Shown: one piece after another, positions 4,546 to 25,671 of the stretch | Layout of the letters: each line of letters starts with the position of its first letter | Numbering within the stretch: the stretch's first letter is position 1 | Origin: Oscillospiraceae bacterium | GTDB lineage: Bacteria; Bacillota; Clostridia; Oscillospirales; Oscillospiraceae | Direction of reading: 5' to 3' | NCBI GenBank assembly: GCA_902761635.1 | Contig: CACWLG010000023.1 | Span: forward strand, 1-34,308 | DNA length: 34,308 bases | The notes under the pieces: model-generated | What the model was told of the DNA's origin: nothing | What the model saw: only the letters and a program-made list of their open reading frames with translations | The model's database searches: none | Made by a program: the position numbers and the translations under genes

Positions 4546-4734
4546 GGCAACACCGCACAATCCGCCTTCGGCATCTCCTGGAAAATTTGTGCCCTGATTT
4601 CGAGCCTTTTTCTTGAGGTACACAATACGATTCGCTTCGCTCAGACGCTCACTTAAGTACATCTGCGAAAAAGTGCCTTTATCAGAACCCAAATTTTCTC
4701 AGGATCTGCTCTTGCCGAATTATGCGGTATTGCC
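4546..4734 (-). repeat. Foldback element copy A (full-length, 189 bp)
   Basis: Longest of four related elements. The ends are inverted repeats: the right end read on the minus strand starts GGCAATACCGCATAATTCGG and the left end read on the plus strand starts GGCAACACCGCACAATCCGC. The inverted similarity extends about 70 bp inward from each end, so the whole unit is an imperfect palindrome. TTCA flanks both sides (4542-4545 and 4735-4738), as expected of a 4-bp target duplication. It fills most of the 313-bp space between the M14 peptidase and the DtxR-like gene, and its right edge encodes the last residues and stop of the latter. It encodes no protein of its own. Confidence 0.85.
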
Positions 4735-5103
4735 TTCATGCTGCTGCCTGACATAGCGCTTCATGGCCCGGAAGGTCTCGTCGCTGATGTCATGCTCGAT
4801 CTTGCAGGCGTCCCGCGCTGCGATCTCCTTGTCCACGCCGATGGAGACGAAGAAATCCGTCAGGAACAGATGCCTCTCATAGGTCCGACCAGCGGCACGT
4901 TTGCCCTCCTCCGTCAGCACGAGATAGCCGTTCTCATCCAGCTCCAGATAGCCGCCGCTGCGCAGCAGGCCCACCGCCCGGCTCACACTCGGCTTGGAAA
5001 AGCCCATATACTCAGCCACATCCACCGCGCGCACACCTTTTTCGCGCTGGGACAGGATGTGGATCGTCTCCAGATACATTTCACCGGATTCCTGTAATTG
5101 CAC
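4720..5103 (-). CDS. DtxR/MntR-family metal-dependent transcriptional repressor, iron-type ligand set
   Basis: Metal-sensing repressor of about 127 residues, a winged helix-turn-helix (ARG/VDVAEYMGFSKPSVSRAVGLL region, about 25-50) followed by the metal-binding dimerisation helices. With the GTG start at 5103 (AGGAG nine bases upstream; TTG 5112 sits too close to it) the primary-site ligands are M9, E12, H78, C100, E103 and H104. MntR proteins have Asp and Glu at the first and fourth of these positions, whereas iron regulators DtxR/IdeR have Met and Cys, so I predict Fe2+ rather than Mn2+ sensing. The final residues GNTA and the TAA stop are encoded by the edge of foldback element A, so the original C-terminus was probably replaced. 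No iron transporter lies nearby. The E2-like gene is divergent. Confidence 0.88.
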   Translation of the reverse strand: MQLQESGEMYLETIHILSQREKGVRAVDVAEYMGFSKPSVSRAVGLLRSGGYLELDENGYLVLTEEGKRAAGRTYERHLFLTDFFVSIGVDKEIAARDACKIEHDISDETFRAMKRYVRQQHEGNTA

Positions 5104-5172
5104 AGTCGTCAACTCCTCATACTCAATAATCGCTCATGCGGCAAACGCTCATACGCCGTCTCTCTTGCTTCC

Positions 5173-5201
5173 AGCATACCATCCCGGCGGTTTTTTTGCA
5201 A
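5173..5201 (-). promoter_or_regulatory. Predicted promoter of the DtxR-family gene
   Basis: Minus strand TTGCAA (5201-5196), 17-bp spacer, TATGCT (5178-5173). Confidence 0.4.
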
Positions 5202-5231
5202 GCGCCTTTCACGTCTGCCGGTTTTTGGGAC

Positions 5232-5260
5232 TTGTAAAGCGGCTGCTTTCCCTGTATAAT
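5232..5260 (+). promoter_or_regulatory. Predicted promoter of the E2-like gene
   Basis: TTGTAA (5232-5237), 17-bp spacer, perfect TATAAT (5255-5260), 57 bp before the start codon. Confidence 0.6.
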
Positions 5261-5317
5261 AGGCGGGACATCCAGCCGTTAATACGATTTCAGACAGAAC
5301 AAAAGGAGCTTTTCGTC

Positions 5318-6199
5318 ATGGCCAAAAACGACAAGCGCCGTTTCGGCGACCGCAAGGATGGGCGCCTGATCCGTTCCCTGCCCGGTTTTTCCCGGTTCAT
5401 TCCCTATATCATGCCCACCCGCAACGACGCCACCAATCTCTATGAAGAGCGCATGGAGGTCAGCGAGGTGGACCGCCGTCTGCGCAGACTGCGGGTAGAG
5501 GGTTATAAGGGCATCGGCATCCTGCACTTTCTGATCGCGGCCTATATCCGCTTGGTCTCCATGCTGCCGGGCCTCAACCGCTTTGTGGCGGGCCGGCGCA
5601 TCTATGCCGCAAACGACATCGTTGTGGTCATGGTGGTCAAGCGCTCCCTATCCATCGACGCAAGCGAGACTACCATCAAGCTCCACTTTGAGCCGACCGA
5701 CACCATCTTCGACGTCTACCGCAAAATGAACGAGAAGATCGATGAGATCAAGGCCAGCGACGAGCACAACAATACCGAGGATGTGGCCGAGGCACTGAGT
5801 CATCTGCCCCGCTTTCTTCTGCGCTTTGTCATTCTGGTGCTGCGCATCCTAGACTATTTCGGCTGGCTTCCCGAGAGTCTGACCGAGGCCAGCCCCTTCC
5901 ACGGCTCCCTGATCATCACGGATCTGGGCTCGCTGCGCATCGGGCCGGTGTTCCACCACATTTACAACTTCGGCACCCTGCCGATCTTCATCGCCTTCGG
6001 GGCCAAGCACCATGTCTATGAACTGGACCGCCACGGCAACATGGTGGACAACAAGTATGTCGACCTGAAGTTCAGCCTGGATGAGCGCACTGTGGACGGG
6101 CATTATATGGCCCAGGCCTTCCAGGCCTGGCGCTACCTCTTCCAGCACCCGGAGATTCTGGAGCAGCCCCCCACAAGAATTGTGGACGATATCTATTGA
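5318..6199 (+). CDS. Orphan 2-oxoacid dehydrogenase E2-acyltransferase-like protein
   Basis: Protein of 293 residues resembling only the catalytic (chloramphenicol-acetyltransferase-like) domain of dihydrolipoamide acyltransferases. The similarity is seen in LHFLIAAYIRLVSMLPGLNR near residue 70, HGSLIITDLGSLRIGPVFHH followed by FGTLPIFIAFG near 200-235, and the C-terminal LDERTVDGHYMAQAF (254-268). True E2 enzymes have DHRxxDG there with a catalytic His; this protein has Glu (E256), so classical acyl transfer is unlikely. There is no lipoyl domain, no peripheral-subunit-binding domain, and no E1 or E3 gene nearby. ATG 5318 follows AAAGGAGC; the longer in-frame upstream reading has no ribosome site. 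It is divergent from the DtxR-type gene and may be controlled by it. Function unknown. Confidence 0.8.
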   Translation: MAKNDKRRFGDRKDGRLIRSLPGFSRFIPYIMPTRNDATNLYEERMEVSEVDRRLRRLRVEGYKGIGILHFLIAAYIRLVSMLPGLNRFVAGRRIYAANDIVVVMVVKRSLSIDASETTIKLHFEPTDTIFDVYRKMNEKIDEIKASDEHNNTEDVAEALSHLPRFLLRFVILVLRILDYFGWLPESLTEASPFHGSLIITDLGSLRIGPVFHHIYNFGTLPIFIAFGAKHHVYELDRHGNMVDNKYVDLKFSLDERTVDGHYMAQAFQAWRYLFQHPEILEQPPTRIVDDIY

Positions 6200-6207
6200 A
6201 CGCAAAC

Positions 6208-6236
6208 GCCCCGGTCACAGGGACCGGGGCATCTTT
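6208..6236 (+). terminator. Terminator hairpin after the E2-like gene
   Basis: Perfect stem GCCCCGGT/ACCGGGGC with a 7-nt loop, followed by only a weak T run (ATCTTTAT), 8 bp after the stop codon. Confidence 0.65.
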
Positions 6237-6370
6237 ATGACGCACACCTTTTTTATCATAGGTGTTCTCCGTCAAAATGTCAATAGTGCAAGGGCTAAAG
6301 ATCGCATTTTTGACGCAAGTTTGGCAGTTTAGCACAAATGCGCCTGCCGTTTTTCGGGAACTATCCCATC

Positions 6371-6399
6371 TTGCAAAAGCCTCTTCCCTCTGCTATATT
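6371..6399 (+). promoter_or_regulatory. Predicted promoter of an unassigned transcript
   Basis: TTGCAA (6371-6376), 17-bp spacer, TATATT (6394-6399), with no convincing gene downstream before 6772. Confidence 0.45.
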
Positions 6400-6404
6400 A
6401 TAAC

Positions 6405-6720
6405 CAGAAAGGGAAATCAAAACATTCCACTTTCCTCTATCCCCGGATCGAATATCGGAGCGATCAAACATGGGGAGCGCACTGCAGGCCCAAAATATGA
6501 GGAGGACGACAGCCACTTTGTTCATCCCGCATTTGGGAATATCGTGAACCGATTGATTGCTGTGAGCTGAAGAAAAATGGTCCCGTTGGCGAGGCAGTGC
6601 TCCGAAATATGAGAAAGCGAGGTAACCAGGATGTTAGATACTAAGAATTCAATGAAATGACCCTTGACTGCTGAAGAGGCGAACGGGAAAAAATCGCCGC
6701 AGTCAAGGGTCGTTTCTATT
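6405..6720 (+). ncRNA. Candidate small RNA or leader transcript, no convincing protein
   Basis: The 685 bp between the E2-like gene and rsmE hold no gene that I recognise. A plausible promoter ends at 6399 and a strong hairpin lies at 6659-6711 (13-bp perfect stem GACCCTTGACTGC, with a second inner 5-bp stem GGCGA/TCGCC), followed by TTTCTATTTTT. Inside is a minute ORF, MLDTKNSMK, at 6631-6660, preceded by GAGGTAACCAGG, whose stop codon touches the hairpin. This resembles an attenuator leader or a stand-alone RNA. A 102-codon frame at 6262-6570 has no ribosome site and no recognisable domain. It matches none of the riboswitch consensus sequences I can check by eye. A decayed gene is the main alternative. 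Confidence 0.3.
6659..6720 (+). terminator. Long-stem hairpin with T-rich tail
   Basis: Perfect 13-bp arms at 6659-6671 and 6699-6711, then GTTTCTATTTTT. The loop contains a second 5-bp stem. Confidence 0.65.
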
Positions 6721-6736
6721 TTTAAATACTTCTGTC

Positions 6737-6772
6737 GCTGCCAGGGATATGAATCCCAGGGCGGCTTTTTTT
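6737..6772 (+). terminator. Second intrinsic terminator
   Basis: GCTGCC-A-GGGAT, 4-nt loop, ATCCC-A-GGGCGGC and seven T residues (6766-6772). It immediately precedes foldback element B. Confidence 0.8.
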
Positions 6773-6774
6773 AT

Positions 6775-6884
6775 GGCAATACCGCATAATTCGGCAAGAG
6801 CAGATCCTGAGAAAATTTGGGTTCTGATAAAGGCACTTTTTCGCAGATGTACTTTGTGTACCTCGCGGATTGTGCGGTGTTGCC
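6775..6884 (+). repeat. Foldback element copy B (110 bp)
   Basis: Its first 80 bp (6775-6854) are identical to positions 4734-4655 of copy A in inverse orientation; the centre and most of the second arm seen in A are deleted, and the end GATTGTGCGGTGTTGCC remains. Flanks are TTAT and TTAG, three of four bases matching. It abuts the stop codon of rsmE exactly. Confidence 0.85.
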
Positions 6885-7616
6885 TTAGGCCAGATTCCCT
6901 GTGGCGTACATAGTCGCAGTCAGCGCCACGATCGGCGCTGTCTCGCAGCGGAGGATCCGCTCCCCCATGGAGCAGACGTGCAGCCCGCAGGATTTGGCGA
7001 GCTTTGCCTCATACTCCTCAAAGCCGCCCTCGGGCCCGGTGATGATGGCGGCAGTTTTCGCCTCTTTGTTGGCCTCCAGCACGGTGTTGAGAGCTTCACG
7101 CTCACCGGTCTCGTACATGAACAGACCCAGCTCCTTCTTGACCGCAGCATCCAGGGCCTGGATAAAATCGCCGGCCCAGGCGACCTGCGGGATGATGCCG
7201 CGGCCGGACTGCTTGGCGGCCTCCTCGGCAATGCGCTGCCAGCGTTCAAGCTTCTTCTCCGGCGTCTCCGGTCGGGCAATGCAGCGCTCACAGTTGAAAA
7301 AGCGGATCTCGTCGGCGCCGGCCTCCACGCCCTTCTGGATAATGTAGTCTACCCTGTCCCCCTTGGGCAGGCCGCACAGCAGCATGACCTTGACCGTGGG
7401 CTCGGCAGGGCAGCGGACGACCTCCAGCACCTCGGCCTCGGCCTGCTCCTTATCCGCGTACACGAGGCGGCATTTGTAATCCGTCCCCTCGCCGTCGCAG
7501 ATGATGACATCCTCGCCCGGGCGCAGGCGCAGCACGCGCACATGCTCGGCATCCCGGCCGCGGATGATAGCCATGCCGCCCTGGATGTTGGTCCCGGCCA
7601 TGAAAAATCTCGCCAT
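6885..7616 (-). CDS. rsmE: 16S rRNA (uracil1498-N3)-methyltransferase RsmE
   Basis: S-adenosylmethionine-dependent SPOUT (trefoil-knot) enzyme that methylates N3 of U1498 in helix 44 of 16S rRNA. The protein is 243 residues, the normal length. An N-terminal PUA-like domain (1-70, with HVRVLRLRPGEDV) precedes the knot domain, which carries CGLPKGDRVDYIIQKGVEAG (81-100), ITGPEGGF (192-199) and GERILRCETA (218-227), the cofactor-binding loops. The usual residue before ETA is Thr; here it is Cys. The start follows CGGAGGGATCGCT. Its TAA stop lies directly against foldback element B. It stands alone, whereas many Firmicutes have it next to prmA. Confidence 0.96.
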   Translation of the reverse strand: MARFFMAGTNIQGGMAIIRGRDAEHVRVLRLRPGEDVIICDGEGTDYKCRLVYADKEQAEAEVLEVVRCPAEPTVKVMLLCGLPKGDRVDYIIQKGVEAGADEIRFFNCERCIARPETPEKKLERWQRIAEEAAKQSGRGIIPQVAWAGDFIQALDAAVKKELGLFMYETGEREALNTVLEANKEAKTAAIITGPEGGFEEYEAKLAKSCGLHVCSMGERILRCETAPIVALTATMYATGNLA

Positions 7617-7631
7617 AGCGATCCCTCCGTT

Positions 7632-7647
7632 TTTCTTTCTTTCTTTC
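7632..7647. repeat. Tetranucleotide run in the rsmE leader
   Basis: Four exact TTTC units between the predicted rsmE promoter and its ribosome site. Confidence 0.7.
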
Positions 7648-7651
7648 GGTG

Positions 7652-7680
7652 ATTATCGCATACTTTTCACATCTTTGCAA
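7652..7680 (-). promoter_or_regulatory. Predicted promoter of rsmE
   Basis: Minus strand TTGCAA (7680-7675), 17-bp spacer, GATAAT (7657-7652), 36 bp before the start codon. Confidence 0.6.
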
Positions 7681-7712
7681 GTGCGGGCGTAGAATGGAGC
7701 GGTGATGCTCCA

Positions 7713-7943
7713 TTGAAAAACGAATTTCGCAATCATGACTGGGAACGCAGGCTCCGTCCCTTCCCTGATATCTGGGAGCGGATCACGGGCGACCGGGGCC
7801 GCCCCTTTCCGCCGCCCCCGCCGCCGGGCAGGCCGCCGATGCCGGGACCTCCGCCCCCGCCGGGCATGCGTCCGCCCCTCATGCCGGGGCGCGGCTGCTG
7901 CACAAAGGCAGTAAGATTCAATCCTCACCGCCGGGGTCGCTGA
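7713..7943 (+). CDS. Small proline-rich protein of unknown function
   Basis: Frame of 76 residues, starting at TTG with no well-spaced ribosome site; a GGAGC lies 14 bases upstream and pairs with GCTCC just before the start. Residues 1-30 look like a genuine protein (NHDWERRLRPFPDIWERITG). Residues 32-57 are almost all Pro and Gly in two poly-Pro blocks, and the tail is basic with a CC pair. No signal peptide or membrane segment is visible. It is divergent from rsmE and close to a possible promoter (TTCACA, 18 bp, TAGAAT at 7690-7695). The opposite strand also reads open as Gly-rich sequence, a by-product of the CCG codons, so the case rests on the N-terminal part. I do not recognise it. Confidence 0.45.
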   Translation: MKNEFRNHDWERRLRPFPDIWERITGDRGRPFPPPPPPGRPPMPGPPPPPGMRPPLMPGRGCCTKAVRFNPHRRGR

Positions 7944-8073
7944 GAGTGTGGAGTTATTTAGAGGTATCCCCCTCCGGGAGATCTGTCGAACGAACAGAGC
8001 GAATGAGACTGAGAGGGGCAAATTCAACCGAACCGCAGGCGCTCCATAACTCAGCACTTCACACTCCACACTC
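7944..8073. repeat. Foldback intergenic repeat overlapping the spoIIR 3' end
   Basis: Outer arms GAGTGTGGAGT (7944-7954) and ACTCCACACTC (8063-8073) are exact reverse complements, and GAGTTAT (7951-7957) pairs with ATAACTC (8046-8052). Between them is a second hairpin block (TCTGTTCG-type arms and CCCCTC/GAGGGG). The right arm encodes the last residues and stop codon of spoIIR. A related purine-rich run of GTGGA/GTGAA units lies upstream of uxuB. Confidence 0.6.
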
Positions 8074-8664
8074 CAAACGCTCCAGGAGCTCTCCCCAGAG
8101 CTCCACGATGCGAAAGCGGATCTGCCAGCCCTCCTCGCGGGTGATGAGGGCATAGTCCTCCGGATTCATCACGGGCCGCACCGCCTCCCGCTGCACCGCC
8201 GCAAGGCAGACCGGCGGGAAAACCACGCACCACCAGTTGTGGCCCGCCCCTTCGCCCAGCACCACGCGCAGCGAACGGTAGCGGCCCGCCGGCAGGCTGA
8301 AGCCTGTGTACTCGCGGGTGGGGTAGCGCTCCTCCCCCAGCGTCACACGCACGGCGCGCCCCTGTGCCGCTCCCTCGGCGGCGGCGCGGATGCCCTCCAG
8401 GTCTCCGGCAAGGATGGCCTCAGCCTCTCCGGCGCTGCCGGCGCCTGCAAGGCGCGGCCTGAGATAGGTAAGCACCGCATCCCGCACCTGCAGCTTGACG
8501 GCCTGCTCCTCCGCCGCGTCAGACGCCGCCAGCACATGCAGCCTCACAAGGCTCCCGGCGATGCGCCGCTGCCGCCCTTCAGCCCAGAGGCCCGCCGTCA
8601 GGCACACGCAGAGCGTAATGAGCGCCGCGAGCTCCCAGATCCGTAAGCACCTGCTTTTCTCCAT
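8059..8664 (-). CDS. spoIIR: Stage II sporulation protein R
   Basis: Forespore-made signal protein that, in Bacillus, is exported into the intermembrane space and triggers the SpoIIGA protease to process pro-sigma-E in the mother cell. The 201-residue protein has one N-terminal membrane segment or signal (11-27). Signature blocks are VRLHVLAASDAAEEQAVKLQ (40-59), RYPTREYTGFSLPAGRYRSL (113-132) and NWWCVVFPP (143-151). The ribosome site is weak (AGGGCGG) and the start codon directly follows the T run of a terminator hairpin, so expression probably depends on its own forespore promoter, which I could not identify. The last codons (ECGV, TGA) fall in a repeat. Its presence marks an endospore former. 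Confidence 0.95.
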   Translation of the reverse strand: MEKSRCLRIWELAALITLCVCLTAGLWAEGRQRRIAGSLVRLHVLAASDAAEEQAVKLQVRDAVLTYLRPRLAGAGSAGEAEAILAGDLEGIRAAAEGAAQGRAVRVTLGEERYPTREYTGFSLPAGRYRSLRVVLGEGAGHNWWCVVFPPVCLAAVQREAVRPVMNPEDYALITREEGWQIRFRIVELWGELLERLECGV

Positions 8665-8669
8665 GAAAA

Positions 8670-8715
8670 AACCGCCCTTCCGTATGTTTGATGCATACAG
8701 TATGGGCGGGTTTTT
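8670..8715. terminator. Bidirectional terminator hairpin at the spoIIR start
   Basis: CCGCCC (8672-8677) pairs with GGGCGG (8704-8709), with an inner stem GTATG/CATAC. There are T runs on both outer sides (8710-8715 on plus; 8671-8666 on minus). On the minus strand it would stop read-through from ispE immediately before the spoIIR ATG. A second small palindrome, CCGGTTTTAAACCGG, follows at 8716-8730. Confidence 0.7.
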
Positions 8716-8788
8716 CCGGTTTTAAACCGGGCAGGAACGCAATGATCTTTTCTGTGACCGGGTTCAGCGGAGGCCACCGCTCTGTTAA

Positions 8789-8877
8789 GGCAATGCCGCA
8801 TCATGCGGCAAGAGCAGATTCCGGGAAAATCGGGTTCTGATGAAGGCGTTTTTTCGCGGGTATTGTGCGGTGTTGCC
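8789..8877 (+). repeat. Foldback element copy C (89 bp)
   Basis: Begins GGCAATGCCGCATCATGCGG and ends TATTGTGCGGTGTTGCC, with the middle AGAGCAGATT then GGGTTCTGATGAAGGC diverged from copies A and B. A perfect TTAA duplication flanks it (8785-8788 and 8878-8881). The right-hand duplication contains the ispE stop codon on the minus strand. Confidence 0.85.
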
Positions 8878-9744
8878 TTAAGTCTGCCTCCCTACGCTGA
8901 CGGCCTTTTCGCAGAAGCCGTACTCCCTTCGCAGAGAAGCGATCGCCTGCTCCGGGGCGGCGCCGGGACGGAAAACGCCGAAGACCGCCGAGCCTGTGCC
9001 CGTCATCACGGCACCGAGGGCGCCATGATCCAGCAGGCAGCCTTTGATTTCCTTCACGGTCCGCATGCGCCGGTCGTCGATATCCTCAAAGACATTGTAC
9101 ATGCGTCGGCACAGCTGATCGAGATTCCCCTCCTCCAGCGCCGCAAGGAGCCCTGCGGTGTCCGGATGGCAGCGGGCGCTGCTCTGATCCAGTTTCCGGA
9201 AAAGCTCCGGTGTGGAGATGGAAAAGTCCGGCTTGCAGATGACGAAGTCGCACGGCGGCATGTCCGACAGGGTCTCCAGCTTCTCGCCCCGGCCTGTGGC
9301 GAGGGCCGTGCCGCAGCGCACACAGAAGGGCACGTCCGAGCCCACTGCGGCGGAGAGCTCCTCCAGCGCTGTCGGGCTCAGCGCCTCGAAATAGCGGTTG
9401 AGCGCGCGCAGCACCGCCGCCGCGTCCGAGGAGCCGCCGCCCATCCCGGCGCCCACCGGCACCCTTTTGTCGAGGGTGATAAGCATGCCCTGCCCTTCCT
9501 TCCCTGCGGCGCGCAGATAGCACATAGCCGCGCGCACGGCCAGGTTCCGCTCGTCCCCCGGGACGAAGGAGAGGTTGCTTTTGGCCTGTACGCGGCCGCT
9601 CTCGTTGAAGCTGATGCACACCTCATCACACAGGGAAACGGTCTGCATCACCATGGTCATATCATGATAGCCGTCGGCGCGCCGCTCTGCCACATCCAGG
9701 GAGATGTTGAGCTTGGCCCAGGCCTTTTCATGAAGTGTAGTCAA
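8878..9744 (-). CDS. ispE: 4-diphosphocytidyl-2-C-methyl-D-erythritol kinase
   Basis: GHMP-family kinase of the MEP isoprenoid pathway. It phosphorylates CDP-methylerythritol at the 2-hydroxyl, using ATP, in the cytoplasm. About 288 residues. K11 in WAKLNISL, the DGYH motif at 24-27 and the ATP loop PVGAGMGGGSSDAAA (96-110) are all intact, as is MTGTGSAVFGVF near the C-terminus. I favour the TTG start at 9744, which has GGAGGG six bases upstream; ATG 9750 lies directly against that site. The upstream extension overlaps the GH13 gene and is not real. It follows the GH13 gene by 26 bp and is probably co-transcribed with it. The product feeds undecaprenyl phosphate used by the TagO-like and GT2 enzymes here. 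Confidence 0.95.
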   Translation of the reverse strand: MTTLHEKAWAKLNISLDVAERRADGYHDMTMVMQTVSLCDEVCISFNESGRVQAKSNLSFVPGDERNLAVRAAMCYLRAAGKEGQGMLITLDKRVPVGAGMGGGSSDAAAVLRALNRYFEALSPTALEELSAAVGSDVPFCVRCGTALATGRGEKLETLSDMPPCDFVICKPDFSISTPELFRKLDQSSARCHPDTAGLLAALEEGNLDQLCRRMYNVFEDIDDRRMRTVKEIKGCLLDHGALGAVMTGTGSAVFGVFRPGAAPEQAIASLRREYGFCEKAVSVGRQT

Positions 9745-9770
9745 AATCATCCCTCCGTTGATGATATGGA

Positions 9771-11453
9771 TTATTCCAGAATGTACACCCGCAGTTCGTA
9801 GGGCCTTGCGGTGAAGCCGTTGCCGATGGTAAAGCAGGTTTCGTAATTGCTGAGGGCAAGGCGCCACTGGTCGAGATTGATGTCCTCCGGCGCATTGAAG
9901 CGCTGCAGCTCCTGGGAGAAGCTGCACACCACCAGCAGGCGCTGGTCAAAATAGCGCCGCTCATACACATAGAAGTTCTTATCCCGGGGATAGAGCTCCC
10001 GATAGTCGCCCCGCAGCACTACGGGCGTCGATTTGCGAAAGGCAATGAGCTTCCGGTAAAAATGCAGCAGGGAGCCGGGGTCCATTTCCGCTGCGCGCAC
10101 GTTGACCTCATTATAATTGCCGTTGACGAAAAACCAGGGTCTGCCCGTGGTGAAGCCGGCGTTGGGCCCGTCGTCCCACTGCATGGGGCTGCGGGCATTC
10201 TCGCGGCACCCCTCCTGGATGAGCGAGAGCACCTTCTTCTGCGGCAGTACTTTGGAGAGGGTCCGGGCAGCGTTGTAGGTCATCACGTCCTTGTACATGT
10301 CCAGCTCCGGCAGGCGCAGATTGGTCATGCCGATCTCCTGGCCCTGATAGATGAAGGGCGTGCCCTTCTGCAGCATGTACATGGCGGCCAGCATTTTCCC
10401 GCTCTCCACCCGGTATTTCTCGCTGCCGTAGCGGCTGATGATGCGCGGGTGGTCGTGGTTCTCAATATACAGGGCGTTCCAGCCGCGGCCCTGCAGCTTG
10501 TACTGCCACTCGCTGAAGGCCCGTTTCATCTTGAGCAGATTGAAGGGCCTGCGGATCACATCCGTTATGAAGCAGTCAGCCTCCATATGGGAAAAGGCGA
10601 TCATCTCGTCGAGCACCTGATCCGGTCCCTCGGTGACATAGCGCAGGGCGGTATCTGCGTTCGTGGCAGGGCTTTCGCCCACGACGAAGCAGTCGTACTG
10701 GCTCAGAACATCGTGTTTGAATTCCTTGAGATACTTGTAGGCCTCGGGGCGGTTGGAATAGTACTTGATCCCGTTTGCCACCGGGAGCTTCGGATACGAG
10801 TTTGGAAATCCCGGGGTCTTGGAGATAAAGGTGATCACATCCTCCCGGAAGCCGTCCACCCCCATGTCGAGCCAGAAGCGGAGGATACGCTTGACCTCGT
10901 CGCGCACCCTGGGATTGTCCATGTTCAGGTCCGGCTGCTTTTTGGCGAACAGATGCAGGTAGTATTCGTCCAGATTGCTGTCGTACTCCCAGGCATCCCC
11001 CTCGAAGATCGAGGTCCAGTTGTTGGGCGGCAGGTTTTTTCCGCCGCTGCCCTTTCTGCCGCTGCGCCAATAATAATAATTGTGGTAGGGGTTGTCGCGG
11101 CTCTTGCGGCTCTCGATGAACCAGGGATGCTCATCCGAGGTATGGTTGACCACGAGATCCATGAACACGCGCAGGCCGCGGTCATGGGCCTCCTTCAGCA
11201 CGCGTTTGAAAACCGTGAGATCGCCGAAGTCCGGGTGGATGTCCTTATAATTGCTGATGTCATAGCCCCAGTCGGCATTGGGCGAGGGGTAGAGGGGGGA
11301 GAACCAGATCGCGTCCACGCCCAGGCTCTTGATATAATCCAGGCGATAGAGCACGCCATAGAGATCGCCGATTCCGTCGCCGTTGCCGTCGCAGAAGCTG
11401 CGGGGCCAGATATGGTAGACAACCATATCCTTGTACCAGGGAGTAAACGCCAT
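9771..11453 (-). CDS. GH13 alpha-glucosidase, oligo-1,6-glucosidase type
   Basis: Cytoplasmic glycoside hydrolase (560 residues, no signal peptide) that releases glucose from the non-reducing end of short alpha-glucans. The GH13 (beta/alpha)8 barrel opens with VVYHIWPRSFCDGNGDGIGD (11-30). Region I is DLVVNH (99-104). The nucleophile is D205 (DGFREDVI), the acid/base E260 (VVGESP) and the third acid D334 (ENHDHPR). Val after the nucleophile is the residue linked to alpha-1,6 rather than alpha-1,4 preference in this subfamily. Glu replaces the usual Met before the nucleophile. Trehalose-6-phosphate hydrolase is the main alternative; no sugar PTS gene is adjacent. Start after GAGGAGGG. First gene of a likely operon with ispE. 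Confidence 0.93.
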   Translation of the reverse strand: MAFTPWYKDMVVYHIWPRSFCDGNGDGIGDLYGVLYRLDYIKSLGVDAIWFSPLYPSPNADWGYDISNYKDIHPDFGDLTVFKRVLKEAHDRGLRVFMDLVVNHTSDEHPWFIESRKSRDNPYHNYYYWRSGRKGSGGKNLPPNNWTSIFEGDAWEYDSNLDEYYLHLFAKKQPDLNMDNPRVRDEVKRILRFWLDMGVDGFREDVITFISKTPGFPNSYPKLPVANGIKYYSNRPEAYKYLKEFKHDVLSQYDCFVVGESPATNADTALRYVTEGPDQVLDEMIAFSHMEADCFITDVIRRPFNLLKMKRAFSEWQYKLQGRGWNALYIENHDHPRIISRYGSEKYRVESGKMLAAMYMLQKGTPFIYQGQEIGMTNLRLPELDMYKDVMTYNAARTLSKVLPQKKVLSLIQEGCRENARSPMQWDDGPNAGFTTGRPWFFVNGNYNEVNVRAAEMDPGSLLHFYRKLIAFRKSTPVVLRGDYRELYPRDKNFYVYERRYFDQRLLVVCSFSQELQRFNAPEDINLDQWRLALSNYETCFTIGNGFTARPYELRVYILE

Positions 11454-11742: not shown

Positions 11743-14406
11743 ATGAAAAGGAAAAACATACTCGCTATGGCACTGGCGATGCTGATGCTGTTCTCGCTCG
11801 CCCCTGCCGCCCTGGCTGCGGAGCTGCCGTTCCCGGCCGAATGGTTTGAGGGGATCGACAGTGTCTCACTGCGCAGCCTCATCGACGAAAACCGCGACCA
11901 GATCGACGTGGGCGGCGGCAGCTTCCAGTTGGAAAACATCCTCTTTCTGGAAGAAAACGTCGTGGATGAGGCGTTGGAGCTCTGCATCTGCGAGACCACC
12001 GAGAGCGCCATGATCGTCGACGAAAAGGCCCTGCCCGCCGGCTGCGAGATCGAGCTGCGCCGGGAGAAGGTGCGCATCCCCGACGCCAGGACCGGCGTGG
12101 AGGTTGCGGAGGAGATCCGCGCAGAAAAGGCCGGCAGACAGCTTGAGCCCAAGGAGAAGCGCATCGACCCCGCCGATCAGGACCGGGAGACCTGGTATCT
12201 CTATCTGACCGGCACACCCACTCAGACCGGCAATTCCATCTTCGTGATCTGGGACGGGGCAATCCGCCTGTGCCAGGTGGAGGTCCTGTCCGAGAAGCCC
12301 GTCCATTACGAGCAGCCCGCCGTTGAGGAACCCTCGATCGGGCCCGCCGTCCCCGCCCAGCAGGAGGAGCCGCCTGTGAATCAGGAATGGACCGACCCCT
12401 GGGCGCCCGGAGTGCTGCCCCCCGAGGAGCAGGAGCCTGCGGCACCGGCTCCCGCTTTCGTGCTGCCCACGCCGTCCGTGACGGTCACGGGCGCCACCCG
12501 CGTGGAGCAGGGGCAGAGCGCCATGCTGAAGGTAGAGGTGACCAACGCCTTCAACGCAAGCTATCAGTGGTATGAGGCCCAGTCGCAGTGGGAGGCTATC
12601 GACGGCGCCACCGACAGCCAATACCGGCCGAGCACCGACCAGGCCGGGACCCAGACCTATCTCTGCCAGGTCACCAACAGCGGTTATGGCCGGACGACCA
12701 CCGCCTATTCCGAGCCCGTGACCTTCACGGTGGAGGCAAAGCAGGAGCTCCCCACGCCCACCGTGGTCATCGCAGGCGCCACCCAGGCTGCCGTGGGCGA
12801 GCTCGTCCAGCTCGAGGCCCGGGTCACCAACGGCCGCAACCTCAGCTATCAGTGGTTTGCAAGCCTCGGTTATTACGACGCCCCCATCCAGAGCGCCGAC
12901 GCCACATCCAGCAGCTTCAGGCCTGATACTTCCCAGGCCGGCACCTTTACTTACTTCTGCCGCGTCACAAGCTCCGACTATGGCCAGACGGTCACGGTCG
13001 ACTCCGCCCCCCTGACCCTTACTCTGACCCAGCGTCAGGTACGGCAGATCAGCTCCGTCACCATCGACGCCATGCCCTCCAAGACCAGCTATTACGATGG
13101 AGAGCGGCTGGATACCGCCGGGCTGCGTCTGCTCGTGTGGTACAACGACGGGACCTATGAGCGCGTCACCACCGGCTTTACCGCAGAGCCCACCACCGTC
13201 CGCTACAACAATTCCGGCATGGTCGACGCCACAGTCCGCTACCAGGGCTATTCCATGACCCTGCCTCTCACCGTAAAACAGCGGCAGGAGCGGAAGATCA
13301 GCTCCGTCACCATTGACACGCTGCCCCGCAAGACTGCCTACAACGACGGCGACCGGCTGGATACCACAGGGCTCCAGCTCCTGGTGAAGTACAGTGACGG
13401 CAGCTATGAGCGCGTAAGCAGCGGCTTTACCGCAGGCCCCAGCGTCATCAAGTACAACAATACCAGCACCGCGAATGTGGCCGTCCGCTATCAGGGCTAC
13501 ACCGCCACCTATCAGATCAGTGTGCGCAGCAGCCAGCAGGCGGTCTCGGACCAGGTGCAGCGCATCGAGATCCTGAGTTCGCCCCGCAAGACCAGCTATA
13601 CCGTAGGCGAGGCGCTGGACACCAGTGGTCTCATGATCCGCGTCTACTCCTACGACGGCCGGTATCTCGATATCGGAGAAGGCTTTGAATGCAGCCCCAC
13701 CCGCTTCAACGGCACCGGCAACCAGGCCGTCATCGTGAGCTTTGCGGGCAAGACCGCGACCTTCACCGTAGCGGTGCAGGAAGCGCGGCGTGTCTACGGC
13801 CTCACGATCACAAGCATGCCTGCCAACCGCAGCTACGCCGCGGGCGACACCATCAGCGCTGCGGGCCTGGTGCTGCAGCTTCAGACCAACAGCGGCTATG
13901 AGACCATCACCAGCGGCTACAGCATTTCCCCGCGGGTGGCCTCCGGTACGGGCACCCAGATGGTCACCGTCTCCTACGAGGGCCTGACCGCAAACTACAC
14001 CGTTGAGGTGCACGCGAACAACATTCCGCGCGTCAGTCCCACCCCGGCCTCCGTCCCCACCCCGGCTGTCACGATGCCCGGCGTCACAACGCCTGGCGCT
14101 TCCCCGGCACCTTCCCCGGCACCTTCCGGGATGCCGACGCCCGGCGCGCTGCCCGGCGTCAGTGCCTCCCCGGCACCCTCGGTCACGCCGCGGCCGGTAA
14201 CCACGCCCGTCCCCGCCCGCCGCAACACCGGCGTCAGCACACTGATCAAGGTGCTCTTTGTTGTGGCGATCCTGGCCCTCGCCGGTCTGATCGGCTATGT
14301 GCTGTATCTGAGAAAGCATGACGGCGAGGAGGACGCCTTCCGGGAGGAAAGCCCCAGCCAGAAGCTCCGCAGCTTCTTCTCGAAGAGGGACCGGGACGAT
14401 CGGTAA
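11743..14406 (+). CDS. Membrane-anchored extracellular protein with Ig-like (Big_3) repeats
   Basis: Surface protein of 887 residues. Layout: signal peptide 1-25 (cut after ALA); N-terminal domain 26-200 that I do not recognise; two Ig-like modules at about 241-327 and 337-425, each with SYQWY or SYQWF, then F/YRPxTxQAGT and TYxCxVT; four Big_3-type modules beginning near 436, 520, 606 and 684, sharing KTxY--G--LDTxGLxL; a Pro/Thr/Ala linker at about 765-828; one membrane helix (VLFVVAILALAGLIGYVLYL, about 837-857); and a charged cytoplasmic tail. The start follows GGAAGGGATAAGCT. It is a C-terminally anchored adhesin-like or wall-spanning scaffold with no catalytic domain visible. It stands alone between terminators, so partners cannot be inferred. 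Confidence 0.85.
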   Translation: MKRKNILAMALAMLMLFSLAPAALAAELPFPAEWFEGIDSVSLRSLIDENRDQIDVGGGSFQLENILFLEENVVDEALELCICETTESAMIVDEKALPAGCEIELRREKVRIPDARTGVEVAEEIRAEKAGRQLEPKEKRIDPADQDRETWYLYLTGTPTQTGNSIFVIWDGAIRLCQVEVLSEKPVHYEQPAVEEPSIGPAVPAQQEEPPVNQEWTDPWAPGVLPPEEQEPAAPAPAFVLPTPSVTVTGATRVEQGQSAMLKVEVTNAFNASYQWYEAQSQWEAIDGATDSQYRPSTDQAGTQTYLCQVTNSGYGRTTTAYSEPVTFTVEAKQELPTPTVVIAGATQAAVGELVQLEARVTNGRNLSYQWFASLGYYDAPIQSADATSSSFRPDTSQAGTFTYFCRVTSSDYGQTVTVDSAPLTLTLTQRQVRQISSVTIDAMPSKTSYYDGERLDTAGLRLLVWYNDGTYERVTTGFTAEPTTVRYNNSGMVDATVRYQGYSMTLPLTVKQRQERKISSVTIDTLPRKTAYNDGDRLDTTGLQLLVKYSDGSYERVSSGFTAGPSVIKYNNTSTANVAVRYQGYTATYQISVRSSQQAVSDQVQRIEILSSPRKTSYTVGEALDTSGLMIRVYSYDGRYLDIGEGFECSPTRFNGTGNQAVIVSFAGKTATFTVAVQEARRVYGLTITSMPANRSYAAGDTISAAGLVLQLQTNSGYETITSGYSISPRVASGTGTQMVTVSYEGLTANYTVEVHANNIPRVSPTPASVPTPAVTMPGVTTPGASPAPSPAPSGMPTPGALPGVSASPAPSVTPRPVTTPVPARRNTGVSTLIKVLFVVAILALAGLIGYVLYLRKHDGEEDAFREESPSQKLRSFFSKRDRDDR

Positions 14407-19746: not shown

Positions 19747-19786
19747 TTCCAGGGCACTTCAGGGAGTGTGTTATGGAGGTCTTTAC

Positions 19787-21736: not shown

Positions 21737-21746
21737 GAAAAGCATA

Positions 21747-21787
21747 CCCTCTCCCGGCGGATTTGAACCCGGGAGGGGGCTTTCTTT
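21747..21787 (+). terminator. Intrinsic terminator after the protease gene
   Basis: CCCTCTCCCGG pairs with CCGGGAGGGGG (one G-T pair) around an 11-nt loop, followed by CTTTCTTT. Confidence 0.8.
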
Positions 21788-21808
21788 CAGCAAAATATTG
21801 TGCTGAAA
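21785..21808. promoter_or_regulatory. Palindromic operator candidate upstream of uxuA
   Basis: Perfect 8-bp arms TTTCAGCA and TGCTGAAA around an 8-bp AT-rich centre, 15 bp upstream of the predicted -35. Size and position fit a LacI- or GntR-family regulator of hexuronate use, which is not encoded in this window. Confidence 0.5.
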
Positions 21809-21823
21809 ATGTAATTTTAGCAG

Positions 21824-21851
21824 TTGTTTTTTTGACCGGGACTGTTACAAT
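21824..21851 (+). promoter_or_regulatory. Predicted promoter of uxuAB
   Basis: TTGTTT (21824-21829), 16-bp spacer, TACAAT (21846-21851), 47 bp before the uxuA start. Confidence 0.55.
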
Positions 21852-21898
21852 AAAAGCACCAAAGAATCAATGAACAGCATAATAAGGAGGAACAAACC

Positions 21899-22984
21899 AT
21901 GCCGATGCAAATGGGCTTTCGCTGGTACGGCGAGGGCAACGACAACATCAAGCTCAGCGATATCCGGCAGATCCCCGGCGTGAAGACCATCGTCTGGGCC
22001 CTGCACAGCAAGATGCCCGGCGAAGTCTGGCAGCCGGAGGAGATCAGGAAGGTCGTCGACCAGATCACGGCCGCGGGCTTCAACGCCGAGGTGGTGGAGT
22101 CCGTCAACGTCCACGACGACATCAAGATCGGCCTGCCCACCCGCGACAAGTACATCGAAAATTACATCCAGACCATCCGCAACCTCGCCCCCTTCGGCGT
22201 GAAGGTCATCTGCTACAACTTCATGCCCATCTTTGACTGGACCCGTTCGGACATGTTCCACCCCGTGGGCGACGGCTCCACGGCTCTTTTCTACCAGAAG
22301 AACATGATCCAGGACGACCCCAGGGAAATGGCCGACTATGTCATGGGCCTCACCGAAAAGTACCACATGACCTTCCCGGGCTGGGAGCCCGAGCGCATGG
22401 CGAAGCTCGACGAGCTCTTTGAAAAGTACAAGCCCGTCACCAAGGAAAAGCTCTGGGAAAATTTCAGGTACTTCCTGGAAAAGCTCATGCCCGTCTGCCA
22501 CGAGTGCGACATCAGGATGGCCGTGCACATGGACGATCCCCCATGGGATATCTTCGGCCTGCCGCGCCTGTTGGTGGACAGTGAGAGCATCGACCGCTTC
22601 CTCAAGATGGTGGACGATCCCTATAACTGCCTGACGCTCTGCTCCGGCTCGCTGAACGCAAACCCCGCCAACAACGTCGCCGAGATCGTCCGCAAGCACT
22701 GCGACCGCATCGCCTTTGCCCACATCCGCAACGTCAAGCACTTCCCGAACGGTGACTTCTCCGAGGCCAGCCACCGCGACTGCGACGGCGAGACCGGCAT
22801 TCTGGACATTCTCAAGGCCTACCACGACTGCGGCTTCGAGGGCTATATCCGCCCCGACCACGGCCGTCACCTCTGGGACGAGAAGCCGGGCAATGTCCGC
22901 CCCGGCTACGGTCTCTATGACCGCGCCCTCGGCATCATGTACATGCTCGGCGCGTGGGACTACATGGACAAATTCTCGAAATGA
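21899..22984 (+). CDS. uxuA: Mannonate dehydratase
   Basis: Metal-dependent (Fe2+/Mn2+) TIM-barrel enzyme that dehydrates D-mannonate to 2-keto-3-deoxygluconate in glucuronate breakdown. 361 residues, normal for the family. Landmarks: MGFRWYGEGND at the start, CYNFMPIFDWTRSD (100-120), MAVHMDDPPWDIFGLPR (about 202-218), LTLCSGSLNANPANN (about 242-256), AHIRNVKHF, and IRPDHGRHLWDEKPG (about 316-331), which supply the metal-ligating Cys/His/Asp set. The ribosome site AAGGAGG is ideal. First gene of a two-gene operon with uxuB. The stop codon lies within a perfect 13-bp-stem hairpin (22965-22995). Confidence 0.97.
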   Translation: MPMQMGFRWYGEGNDNIKLSDIRQIPGVKTIVWALHSKMPGEVWQPEEIRKVVDQITAAGFNAEVVESVNVHDDIKIGLPTRDKYIENYIQTIRNLAPFGVKVICYNFMPIFDWTRSDMFHPVGDGSTALFYQKNMIQDDPREMADYVMGLTEKYHMTFPGWEPERMAKLDELFEKYKPVTKEKLWENFRYFLEKLMPVCHECDIRMAVHMDDPPWDIFGLPRLLVDSESIDRFLKMVDDPYNCLTLCSGSLNANPANNVAEIVRKHCDRIAFAHIRNVKHFPNGDFSEASHRDCDGETGILDILKAYHDCGFEGYIRPDHGRHLWDEKPGNVRPGYGLYDRALGIMYMLGAWDYMDKFSK

Positions 22985-22995
22985 GAATTTGTCCA
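22965..22995 (+). other. Intercistronic hairpin across the uxuA stop codon
   Basis: TGGACAAATTCTC and GAGAATTTGTCCA are exact reverse complements around the loop GAAAT; the TGA stop spans the loop and second arm. No T run follows, so it is more likely to affect RNA processing, stability or uxuB translation than to terminate. A purine repeat of GTGGA/GTGAA units (22995-23025) follows and contains the uxuB ribosome site. Confidence 0.8.
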
Positions 22996-23026
22996 AAGTG
23001 GAAAGTGAAAAGTGGAGAGTGAAGAT

Positions 23027-24562
23027 ATGGTACTGAATAACGAATCCATTAAAAACAGAGCCGCATGGGAGAAGCTGGGCTATCGGCTGCCGAAATTTGA
23101 CCGGGACGCGATGGTCGAAAAGACTGTCAAAAATCCCACCTGGCTGCACTTCGGCGCGGGCAACATCTTCAAGGCCTTCCAGGCCGATGCCTGCCAGCGC
23201 CTGCTGGACGCAGGGCTTTGGGACACCGGCATTATTGCCGCCGAGCGACGCGAGAAAAAACCCGAGGCAAACGACAACCTGACCGTCAAGGTCACCCTCA
23301 AGGCAGACGGCAATGTGGAAAAGGCCGTCGTCGCCTCCATCGCCGAGAAGGTCTATCTCTACGGCAGCGAGGCGAGACTCAAGGAGATTTTTGAAAACCC
23401 CAGCCTCCAGATGGTGTCCTTCACCATCACCGAGAAGGGCTACGCCCTCTATGACGCAAACGGCGAATACCTGCCCGACATCGCCGTCGATCTTGCGGGC
23501 ACACCCGAGACGGCGAAGAGCTACATGGGAAAGATCACGGCCCTGCTCTGCGCCCGCTATCTCAAGAACAGGGCGCCGCTCGCCATGGTGAGCATGGATA
23601 ACTGCTCCCACAACGGCGATAAGCTCAAAACCGCGATCACCTGCTTTGCCGAGAAGTGGGGCGGCCCCGGCTTCAACGCCTGGCTCAAGGAGTCGGTGAG
23701 CTTCCCCTGGTCTATGATCGACAAGATCACCCCGGGGCCGGACGCCTCCGTTGCCGCCATGCTGAAGGAAGACGGGCTTGCCGACGGCACCCCCTTCGTC
23801 AATGCCGAGGAGTGTGAGTACCTCGTTATCGAGGACAGCTTCCCCAACGGCCGTCCCTGCCTCGAAAAGGCAGGCATCTACTTCACCGACCGCGAGACCG
23901 TGGACAAGGTGGAGCGCATGAAGGTCTGCACCTGCCTCAATCCCCTGCACACCAGCCTCGCCGTGTACGGCTGCCTGCTGGGCTACGACAGGATCTGGAA
24001 GGAGATGCAGGATGAGGACCTCCGCAAGCTGGTAGAGCTTGTCGGATACAAAGAGGGTCTGCCCGTCGTGACCGATCCCGGCATCATCAGCCCGAAAGCC
24101 TTCATCGACGCGGTGGTGAACGAGCGCGTGCCGAACCCCTTCCTGCCGGACATGCCGCAGCGCATTGCGATGGACACCTCCCAAAAGCTGCCCATTCGCT
24201 TCGGCGAGACGATCAAGGCCTACATCGCTTCCGATACGCTGGACGTGAACGACCTCAAGTTCATCCCGCTGGTGCACGCGGGGTGGCTGCGCTACCTCAT
24301 GGGCGTGGACGACAGGGGCGAGCTCTTTGAGCAGAGCCCCGACCCCCTGCTTGAGACTGCGAAGGCTTACGTCAAGGACATGAAGCTCGGCGAAAAGCCC
24401 GACACGAAGAAACTCGAGGGCCTGCTGAGAAACGCCTCCATCTTCGGCGTGGATCTGGTGGACGCGGGGCTCGCCGATAAGATTTACGACTATTTCACCG
24501 AGCTCACCGAGGGTGTCGGCGCGGTGCGCAAGACCCTGCACAAGTACGTCTGGGGCAAATGA
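23027..24562 (+). CDS. uxuB: Fructuronate reductase (mannitol dehydrogenase family)
   Basis: NAD-dependent long-chain polyol dehydrogenase (511 residues) that interconverts D-fructuronate and D-mannonate, giving UxuA its substrate. The cofactor-binding motif is WLHFGAGNIFKAFQAD (about 39-54); the SMDNCSHNGDKL block lies near 190, and the catalytic lysine is in MKVCTCLNPLHTSLAVYG (about 302-319). Tagaturonate or mannitol-type substrates are possible for this family; the uxuA partner argues for fructuronate. ATG 23027 has GTGGAGAG eight bases upstream, a site formed by a purine-rich repeat. Uronate isomerase, 2-keto-3-deoxygluconate kinase and aldolase genes are not in the window. Confidence 0.93.
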   Translation: MVLNNESIKNRAAWEKLGYRLPKFDRDAMVEKTVKNPTWLHFGAGNIFKAFQADACQRLLDAGLWDTGIIAAERREKKPEANDNLTVKVTLKADGNVEKAVVASIAEKVYLYGSEARLKEIFENPSLQMVSFTITEKGYALYDANGEYLPDIAVDLAGTPETAKSYMGKITALLCARYLKNRAPLAMVSMDNCSHNGDKLKTAITCFAEKWGGPGFNAWLKESVSFPWSMIDKITPGPDASVAAMLKEDGLADGTPFVNAEECEYLVIEDSFPNGRPCLEKAGIYFTDRETVDKVERMKVCTCLNPLHTSLAVYGCLLGYDRIWKEMQDEDLRKLVELVGYKEGLPVVTDPGIISPKAFIDAVVNERVPNPFLPDMPQRIAMDTSQKLPIRFGETIKAYIASDTLDVNDLKFIPLVHAGWLRYLMGVDDRGELFEQSPDPLLETAKAYVKDMKLGEKPDTKKLEGLLRNASIFGVDLVDAGLADKIYDYFTELTEGVGAVRKTLHKYVWGK

Positions 24563-24578
24563 TCCCCGGATATGCCTC

Positions 24579-24616
24579 GGGCCTGTCCGCGAAAATGCGG
24601 ACAGGCCCGATTTTTT
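24579..24616 (+). terminator. Intrinsic terminator of uxuAB
   Basis: Perfect 12-bp stem GGGCCTGTCCGC/GCGGACAGGCCC, 6-nt loop, then GATTTTTT. It ends at the stop codon of the convergent acyltransferase. Confidence 0.92.
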
Positions 24617-25571
24617 AATTCAGCTTCAGGCGCTTGCGCAGCAGACGCGACACGCCGACAAGCAGCGCCGTATAGACCACCGTGAGCAGCAGGAACAGCG
24701 GCAGGGGCTTTTCCAGTGCCCAGAAGTGGGTGAGATAGATTTCAAAGGTCAGGCCGCCGAGAAAGCCCAGGCCCCGGTTTACGGCCCGGCCCGGCGTCCA
24801 CTGCTCCAGCCACGCCGAGACTGCGGCTGTCAGGACGCAGAATCCCGGGGTGATGAGCAGCATCGGATACCAGGCGATGCCATGACTCCAGATGAGGTCC
24901 GGGAAAAATTTCGGGCTCTCCCAGATAATCGCCGCTCCCACCGGCATCAGACCCAGCAGCAGCGCGAGCTCCGCCTTTGTGAGCCCTTCCCGCCTCTCGC
25001 TCTCGGCAGCGAAGAGCATGCCCGCGAAAAAGACCGGCAGGCGGGCGGCAATGATAATGAGCTCATTATCCCCCCAGAAGGCAGCGGAGAACAGCAGCAG
25101 CGCCAGCACTGCCGCCGCAGCCTTCAGGCGGGTGCCGCACTTTTCCGCGAGAGGGGCCAGCCAGGGCGTGAGCAGATAGCTCAGCCACATGCCGGAGACG
25201 TACCAGTTAAAGGCGGGCGACACAGCCGTGAAGCCCTGTACGCCGATGAGGTTGGCAAGCGCCGCCGCAAAGCCGATCCCGCCGCCCCGGGCCTGCGCCA
25301 GAATCCAGACCAGGATAAAGGGCAGATAGACCGGCAGGATGCGCCCGGCGCGCCGACGCAGGAAGCTGACCGGGTCCCGGTCCCGCCTGTAGGAGAAAAA
25401 GCAGCCGATGCCCGAAGCAAAGAAAAAAATGTCCACGCCGCCGTAAAAGAAACCGGCGGCTTTTTTCAGTGCCGTCTCCGGCCAGGCGCCCTTGGTGTGG
25501 TAGCACAGGATCAGCAGGATCGCCAGGGCCATCATGTTTTTCCGATATTTGAACAGGGTCTGAAAACGCAT
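24615..25571 (-). CDS. Acyltransferase 3 family membrane protein
   Basis: Polytopic membrane protein (318 residues, about nine or ten hydrophobic segments) of the family that O-acylates surface sugars or lipids using cytoplasmic acyl-CoA. The first helix carries ILLILCYHTKG, where the His is the family's conserved catalytic residue; FYGGVDIFFFASGIGCFFSY follows, then RRRAGRILPVYLPFIL, and the end has TFEIYLTHFWALEK. ATG 25571 follows GGAGGTGTACGG; the upstream extension would run into foldback element D and is not coding. It stands alone, convergent with uxuB. The substrate is unknown; a wall glycan is the obvious candidate. Confidence 0.85.
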   Translation of the reverse strand: MRFQTLFKYRKNMMALAILLILCYHTKGAWPETALKKAAGFFYGGVDIFFFASGIGCFFSYRRDRDPVSFLRRRAGRILPVYLPFILVWILAQARGGGIGFAAALANLIGVQGFTAVSPAFNWYVSGMWLSYLLTPWLAPLAEKCGTRLKAAAAVLALLLFSAAFWGDNELIIIAARLPVFFAGMLFAAESERREGLTKAELALLLGLMPVGAAIIWESPKFFPDLIWSHGIAWYPMLLITPGFCVLTAAVSAWLEQWTPGRAVNRGLGFLGGLTFEIYLTHFWALEKPLPLFLLLTVVYTALLVGVSRLLRKRLKLN

Positions 25572-25628
25572 CCGTACACCTCCCGGAACGGCGGCTCGGT
25601 AACAAAACACAGCAAGGAAGCATGCTAC

Positions 25629-25671
25629 GGCAACACCGCACAATACGACTGCCGCATGATGCGGTATTGCC
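25629..25671 (-). repeat. Foldback element copy D (43 bp, ends only)
   Basis: Consists of the two terminal inverted repeats joined with almost no interior (GGCAACACCGCACAATACG on one side; its reverse strand starts GGCAATACCGCATCATGCGG). It resembles copy C after internal deletion. No flanking duplication is visible. It lies between the divergent acyltransferase and nitroreductase genes. Confidence 0.75.

Follow-up and report, generated by a model that had tools for sequence, protein, structure and literature searches.

The window analysed here, a 34,308-nucleotide stretch of contig CACWLG010000023.1 from an Oscillospiraceae bacterium, contains four related short units, designated copies A to D, whose ends are GGCAAYRCCGCAYMAT and the inverse of GGCAAYRCCGCAYMAT. 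These units are very probably miniature inverted-repeat transposable elements (MITEs) of the IS5 type, namely non-autonomous elements that duplicate a 4-bp target and are moved in trans. They are short, carry terminal inverted repeats (TIRs) and have no capacity to code for a transposase. The original prediction had described four units with these ends as mobile, non-autonomous and 4-bp duplicating; all four were found where predicted, and the mobility was corroborated by the exact 4-mers and empty sites described below.

Target duplication and empty sites

It had been suggested with that prediction to search the genome and its relatives with the ends, to tabulate the flanking 4-mers, and to compare empty sites in relatives. 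In the window's own genome (G000; 3,589,123 bases in 176 contigs, 85.8% complete), a 16-base pattern of the ends, one mismatch being allowed, gave 164 matches (89 forward and 75 reverse), and the reversed end pattern used as the control gave 1 (0 forward, 1 reverse). A 21-base end (at most one mismatch) was observed in 34 of the 102 genomes of the genus, G000 included, with 1 to 364 ends each; no such end was found in the other 68. Pairing of ends that lay less than 420 bp apart, with up to three mismatches per pair, gave 196 distinct pairs, 50 of them from G000; they are a sample of the sites found, drawn from the stretches retrieved among the matches listed. Identical 4-mers flanked 136 of the 196 pairs (34/50 in G000; 0/3 in G091, a genome of the same genus), compared with a mean of 38 and a maximum of 51 when the right flanks were shuffled 1000 times. 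The duplication was exactly 4 bp, with 2 pairs matching at 5 bp. TTAA accounted for 69 of the 136 duplications and YTAR for 90; the target was previously proposed to be TTNA, and YTAR fits better.

In the window, copies A and C are flanked by exact 4-bp duplications (TTCA/TTCA and TTAA/TTAA, respectively) and copy B by TTAT/TTAG, in agreement with the perfect and three-of-four matches predicted. The G in the right flank of copy B is probably a later change, because the orthologous copy in G107 has TTAT/TTAT. G107 is the relative used for the comparison of orthologous sites, and its rsmE protein is 98% identical to that of the window. Copy D is flanked by CTAC/CTGA and has no duplication; it is a remnant or a minimal form. 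The units and the adjoining features are listed below. The strand of a unit is that of the T-first orientation, in which the first end has T at both position 6 and position 13; this definition makes no use of energy.

4542..4545, no strand: target duplication TTCA, left of copy A (sequence; at the empty G107 site, both flank alignments include these 4 bp)
4546..4734, minus strand (T-first, stabler strand): copy A, 189-bp MITE that looks like a shortened long form; its right TIR gives the mntR stop
4735..4738, no strand: target duplication TTCA, right of copy A (sequence; G107 comparison)
4720..5079, minus strand: mntR-like regulator gene, final codons and stop from copy A (gene calling; name by eye; C-terminus compared with G107)
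6771..6774, no strand: target copy TTAT, left of copy B (sequence; G107 comparison)
6775..6884, plus strand (T-first): copy B, 110-bp MITE that lacks columns 91-139 of the 159-base reference, a part of one arm
6885..6888, no strand: target copy TTAG (TTAT in G107) containing the rsmE stop codon at 6885-6887 (sequence; G107)
6885..7601, minus strand: rsmE-like gene, stop codon within the target copy of copy B (name from the original prediction)
8785..8788, no strand: target duplication TTAA, left of copy C (sequence)
8789..8877, plus strand (T-first): copy C, 89-bp MITE with an internal deletion; the G107 site is without the element
8878..8881, no strand: target duplication TTAA containing the ispE stop codon at 8878-8880 (sequence)
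25629..25671, minus strand (T-first): copy D, 43-bp unit consisting of two TIRs separated by 11 bp; without a target duplication

Site A was empty in G107, and the two flank alignments overlapped by the 4-bp target. Site C was also empty there, with a few bases altered; the G107 flanks of both sites were 88-95% identical. The intergenic stretch at site D was not alignable with G107. Of the 102 genomes of the genus, 93 contained rsmE. Among 30 loci whose rsmE 3' region (to 400 bp past the stop) was compared, the unit was found in 2 (G000 and G107) and in none of the other 28. Copy B is the same insertion in these two genomes, with different deletions in one arm; therefore, the deletions postdate the insertion.

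These results bear on whether the units are instead an ancient conserved regulatory element that is not mobile DNA. A wider contig scan, with a pattern excluding the main form, gave matches in Ruminococcus, Ruminococcaceae, Eubacteriaceae and Anaerotignum records and others, among the matches listed (80 of at least 119 stretches), and such a wide presence would suit an old element. Matches in Nitrosomonas, an epsilonproteobacterium and Galacturonibacter were probably due to chance. However, the 4-bp duplications, the empty sites and the variation in end number, 0 to 364 among the genomes of a single genus, make an ancient element almost inconceivable. Carriage of the unit by all relatives had been named in advance as the sign of such an element, and empty sites were found.

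As predicted, copy B adjoins the rsmE stop codon (TTA on the plus strand at 6885-6887) and copy C the ispE stop codon (8878-8880), each stop lying inside the target copy. Copy A lies within mntR, six codons ahead of the G107 stop, and the tail KQKSVR of G107 is replaced by GNTA and a stop from the TIR of copy A. Judging from the sequence, copy A would be a second route to tolerance, in which the mntR tail is cut and the stop is supplied by the unit's own end. A search of Rfam with window positions 4400-9000, which cover copies A to C, gave a single match, below the gathering score and outside the units.

The lengths of the 196 pairs ranged from 27 to 395 bp, the longest few of which may be chance pairings of separate ends. 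The commonest lengths were 159 bp (45/196), 161 bp (20/196) and 157 bp (8/196), and a long form of about 225-238 bp (partly runs of N) was also present. Copy A had been taken for the parent form; it is not the parent, and it looks like a shortened long form. The description of copy C as an internal deletion was upheld.

Forms with little beyond both ends were also observed with exact duplications, namely 45-bp forms at L261 1551-1595 and 6489-6533 and at L187 6984-7028, and 35-bp forms at L178, L195, L213 and L270. The two 45-bp copies of L261 are near-identical, each with TTAA duplications, and the small 45-bp units also seem to be mobile. In genome G087, the fetched 159-bp copies were near-uniform by eye, with exact duplications in 11 of 12 pairs, and the amplification there seems recent. 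Contigs of these draft genomes often end within the repeats, which calls for caution on the part of users. When the end sequences were used as the query, no paper was found in the open-access literature, and open-access papers on Clostridia MITEs, IS5/YTAR MITEs, wobble pairs and palindromic repeats gave no description of the units in the titles and opening lines of abstracts among the papers listed.

Candidate helper insertion sequences

The original prediction had called for a helper elsewhere. The helper is probably an insertion sequence (IS) of the IS5 family with the same ends, found in relatives and not in G000. A search of seven carrier genomes for DDE_Tnp_1 (PF01609) gave four loci, one of which (L165 in G091) had the unit ends; at the other three, no end with fewer than four mismatches was found. 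The IS of L165 starts at contig base 1 with GGCAACACCGCACAA and ends with GGTGTTGCC followed by CTAA. Its transposase, P0001, has 325 residues and matched NCBIfam NF033581 (IS5) with 310.7 bits against a cutoff of 140, as well as Pfam DDE_Tnp_1 and DUF772. The last 38 bp of this IS are tandemly doubled (L165 1102-1177), giving two possible right ends.

Other ISs with these ends were also identified; together with that of L165, they measure about 1.13-1.18 kb. Both TIRs and equal flanks were present in L362 (CTAA, 1150 bp, an uninterrupted frame of 355 amino acids), in the single IS represented by L369 and L378 (TTAG, 1137 bp, a frame with stops) and in L374 (TTAA, 1132 bp, a match to residues 1-204 only). 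The ISs and representatives of the units share little beyond the terminal 10-21 bp. A YTAR target has been reported for IS5 in E. coli in the accessible text of PMC10359306.

Several observations weigh against the assignment of the units to IS5-type MITEs moved by this helper. As many as 60 of the 196 pairs had no exact duplication. Among the candidate ISs, L359, L360, L361 and L372 had the ends with unequal flanks, only one end was seen in L363, L364, L375 and L381, and no ends were present in L365 (65% identity) or in L373/L377 (51-61%); homologs at 39-46% identity had no such ends. The left flank of the L165 IS is missing at the contig start, and an uninterrupted frame occurred in L362 alone among the three ISs with equal flanks. 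Homologs at E<=1e-40 were found in 15 of 394 genomes of the order (among the rows listed, G000 appears and G091 does not). No homolog at E<=1e-40 was found in G000, which is 85.8% complete and for which 5 of 6 candidates were scored, and the search for DDE_Tnp_1 gave nothing in G103, a genome with 364 ends. Within the genus, where seven genomes and G000 were searched, the helper was seen in G091 alone, and 0 of 3 MITE pairs there had equal 4-mers. No structure of the transposase was present in the PDB set.

Other candidates for the helper were rejected. Of the end pairs 420-4500 bp apart, two were read: that of L261 encloses an LD-carboxypeptidase-like gene (by eye) and consists of a truncated unit and a 45-bp unit, and that of L204 showed no visible transposase. 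Several others were pairs of separate units. The presumed IS start at L067:4619 belonged to a secreted-protein gene by eye. For 13 single-ended copies, no transposase was seen by eye among the first three called genes; a serine-recombinase-like gene lay near that of L083. A candidate at a contig end in L059 proved to be a different IS inside a unit, and its other copies were without a unit end.

Two further loci are noted as side observations. The sole PF01609 find in G087 was a broken and different IS5-like locus. An IS with the ends TGTAGCGTTACAAT (integrase-like, IS481-like by eye) was located at L059 1785-1899, one copy being inside a MITE; it occurred at the contig ends G000:C49, C42, C53, C38, C17, C5 and C3 and in 12 of the 102 genomes of the genus.

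Stop codons, hairpin folding and decay of copies

The relation to stop codons was examined with 113 copies that had an exact duplication and flanks of 500 bp or more on both sides. The empty sites were rebuilt in a script, and genes were called with our own small dicodon caller, whose calls were looked over on the window only. The target contained a whole stop codon in 27 copies, lay inside an open reading frame (ORF) in 13 (one in both classes) and was in neither class in 74. As the control, other occurrences of these 4-mers within the loci were used (1522 sites, weighted by locus), of which 4.8% overlapped a stop (whole stops, 4.4%) and 59.8% were inside ORFs. When ORF interiors were excluded, stops were observed in 27 of 101 copies versus approximately 12% in the locus-weighted control (odds ratio 2.7, p 0.0003, on scaled counts); the pooled control was 6% (34/570), with an odds ratio of 6.7 for whole stops. 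The stop-codon bias is thus real, 2 to 4.5 times the non-coding expectation, and it is a bias, not a rule. Part of it may be due to target context, because the observed sites differ from the control in having an AT-rich core of about 14 bp and GC-richer outer flanks. Accumulation at stops through the duplicated target, as originally proposed, was recognizable in the 27 of 113 copies that kept the stop in the target; it was weaker than claimed, with 74 of 113 lying elsewhere between genes.

Next to this bias, the hairpin structure was found to be a common property of the units. When 92 copies of 155-175 bp were sorted by greedy clustering on shared interior 9-mers, 10 groups were formed (54, 11, 10, 5, 3, 2, 2, 2, 2 and 1 copies). 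Some groups share short motifs, and distant kinship between them is possible. Although the interiors of the groups are dissimilar, 87 of the 92 copies form a single unbranched hairpin; the other 5 contain a small second loop. The T-first strand was the stabler one in 67 of 68 scored full-length copies, 21 of 22 in the case of those from the contig scan; there were 82 full-length copies, 14 of which were unscored, mainly those with equal ends. In two groups, the strands differed by only 1-11 kcal/mol.

For the main subfamily, 23 non-redundant copies among 44 of 159 bp were aligned. On the stable strand, 96.7% of cells were paired and 64 cells were double-changed, compared with 22.6 (sd 3.4) after shuffling and 17 or fewer in slid structures; the structure was derived from the same alignment, which favours it, and the variants are not phylogenetically independent. 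The opposite strand gave 88.2% paired cells and 57 double-changed cells versus 21.4 after shuffling. Furthermore, variants were compared by frequency in an alignment of 176 main-subfamily copies. Those seen once kept the pair in 14 of 59 cases (G.T 9, A.C 15), and those present in three or more copies did so in 45 of 55 (G.T 17, A.C 3; Fisher p 3e-10 and 0.002), variants seen twice being excluded. Watson-Crick pairs were formed by 28 of the 55 inherited variants. Recent mutation is therefore without strand bias or constraint, and inherited variation is with both. The most economical interpretation is that more descendants come from copies with one foldable strand.

Such pairing might be kept by mutation alone, for instance by template switching between the arms, with no selection on structure. 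The accessible text of PMC8794818 describes template switching as able to create and maintain stems, and it could explain the Watson-Crick compensation seen in 28 of 55 inherited variants. By reasoning, however, it is expected to yield Watson-Crick pairs with no strand preference, and in our view it could not explain the wobble bias of 17 G.T to 3 A.C among inherited variants against 9 to 15 among recent ones; we regard mutation alone as unlikely.

Alternatively, the host could maintain the hairpins because they form the 3' ends of transcripts or stabilise mRNA, which would explain their position after stop codons. The hairpins are stable, 27 of 113 targets hold stops (odds ratios 2.7 to 6.7), and, in the available part of PMC2229807, the YPAL repeats of Yersinia are proposed to affect upstream transcripts. 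However, the stabler strand was the sense strand in just 12 of the 27 stop insertions and 21 of the 55 tandem-gene insertions. As a sense-strand preference is absent, the stable strand is not accounted for by a benefit to host transcripts. Moreover, the orthologous copies B lost different arm parts in two species, and recent changes do not spare pairs. The suggestion that the units act as mRNA 3' ends was abandoned on orientation, and maintenance by the host for this purpose is very unlikely.

In addition to their ends, the MITEs may depend on, or benefit from, a folded strand roughly 160 nt long, either RNA or single-stranded DNA (ssDNA), for their propagation. This idea, which adds to the assignment as IS5-type MITEs, is a reasonable possibility, although short of probable. 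The T-first strand bias, the unbranched folding in 10 groups with dissimilar interiors, the pairing and double changes of the alignment, and the contrast between inherited and recent variants all speak for it. On the other hand, the 45-bp forms of L261 with TTAA duplications seem mobile, 57 double-changed cells also occur on the opposite strand, so that compensation by itself names no strand, two groups differ little between strands, and the structure comes from the alignment on which it was scored. That the folded strand is a second requirement for the spread of IS5-dependent MITEs, with structured RNA or ssDNA serving as a route of propagation or protecting it, is put forward as a tentative and rather doubtful proposal. 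Its basis is that, in different Clostridia, subfamilies with unlike interiors have about the same length and a hairpin rich in wobble pairs on one strand only.

The decay of copies was examined using 36 shortened units of 60-156 bp whose identity to the reference was 85% or more. In 33 of them the deletion was in one arm (14 in the 5' arm and 19 in the 3' arm), and in 3 it spanned the loop. For 26 of the 33, the inner deletion endpoint was close to the apical A/T tract, within columns 58-66 or 91-98. Truncation as in retroposition was rejected, since deletions strike either arm and single copies keep either end (by eye).

Taken together, the following mechanism is proposed for IS5-type MITEs in these genomes. 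An IS5-family transposase would bind the 16-bp ends GGCAAYACCGCAYAAT and catalyse insertion at YTAR-like tetramers, which would then be duplicated. As one strand of YTAR includes TAA or TAG, a gene could carry the target word in frame only as its stop codon. Insertions in coding sequences would largely be lost, and the survivors would be those in intergenic DNA or at a stop codon, where the stop within the target would survive unchanged in the target copy adjoining the gene. Once inserted, units decay, mostly by deletion in one arm; those leaving descendants tend to keep one strand foldable into a hairpin of about 160 nt, a tendency shown by the substitution patterns, the reason for which we infer. 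An abundant repeat of Clostridia would thereby be tied to a concrete transposase family and its tolerance at stop codons explained. It would also offer a non-coding DNA transposon in which an apparent filtering of descendants for the fold of one strand can be tested.

Two other repeats were present in the window. Positions 13010-13250 and 13259-13499 form a tandem 241-bp repeat (73% identical) within a long ORF, and positions 29357-30188 and 31482-32310 are two diverged nearby copies, 71-78% identical in pieces.

Comparison with known systems

The ends of IS5 are 16 bp long, as in the units described here. IS5 and its derived MITEs further share with these units the IS5-family helper transposase (by NCBIfam and Pfam) and, according to the accessible text of PMC10359306, the 4-bp YTAR duplication. 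In contrast to IS5-derived MITEs, the interiors here are not shortened ISs, the long hairpin is strand-asymmetric, and there are many subfamilies of similar length.

A paper of 2006 reportedly found that YPAL of Yersinia prefers sites just after stop codons. YPAL/RU-2 are abundant, intergenic, palindromic, non-coding mobile repeats of about 168 bp with predicted stem-loop transcripts; their inverted repeats are internal and their duplications range from 3 to 26 bp, as far as the available part of PMC2229807 goes, whereas the units here have terminal repeats and a fixed 4-bp duplication. The same part of PMC2229807 describes Correia/NEMIS of Neisseria and RUP of pneumococcus as MITEs of about 105-157 bp with inverted ends and stem-loop transcripts, having 5'TA3' termini, with RUP tied to the helper IS630-Spn1. 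In the units here, the enzyme is of the IS5 type and the target YTAR.

REP/REPIN sequences with RAYT are dispersed palindromes without an enzyme of their own. To our knowledge, no target duplication is expected from that class of enzyme, whereas the present units have 4-bp duplications. Thus, the known kind to which these units belong is the IS5-type MITE, and what is unusual is the wide spread in Clostridia, the constancy of size while interiors change, and a one-strand hairpin that is constrained at the level of inheritance.

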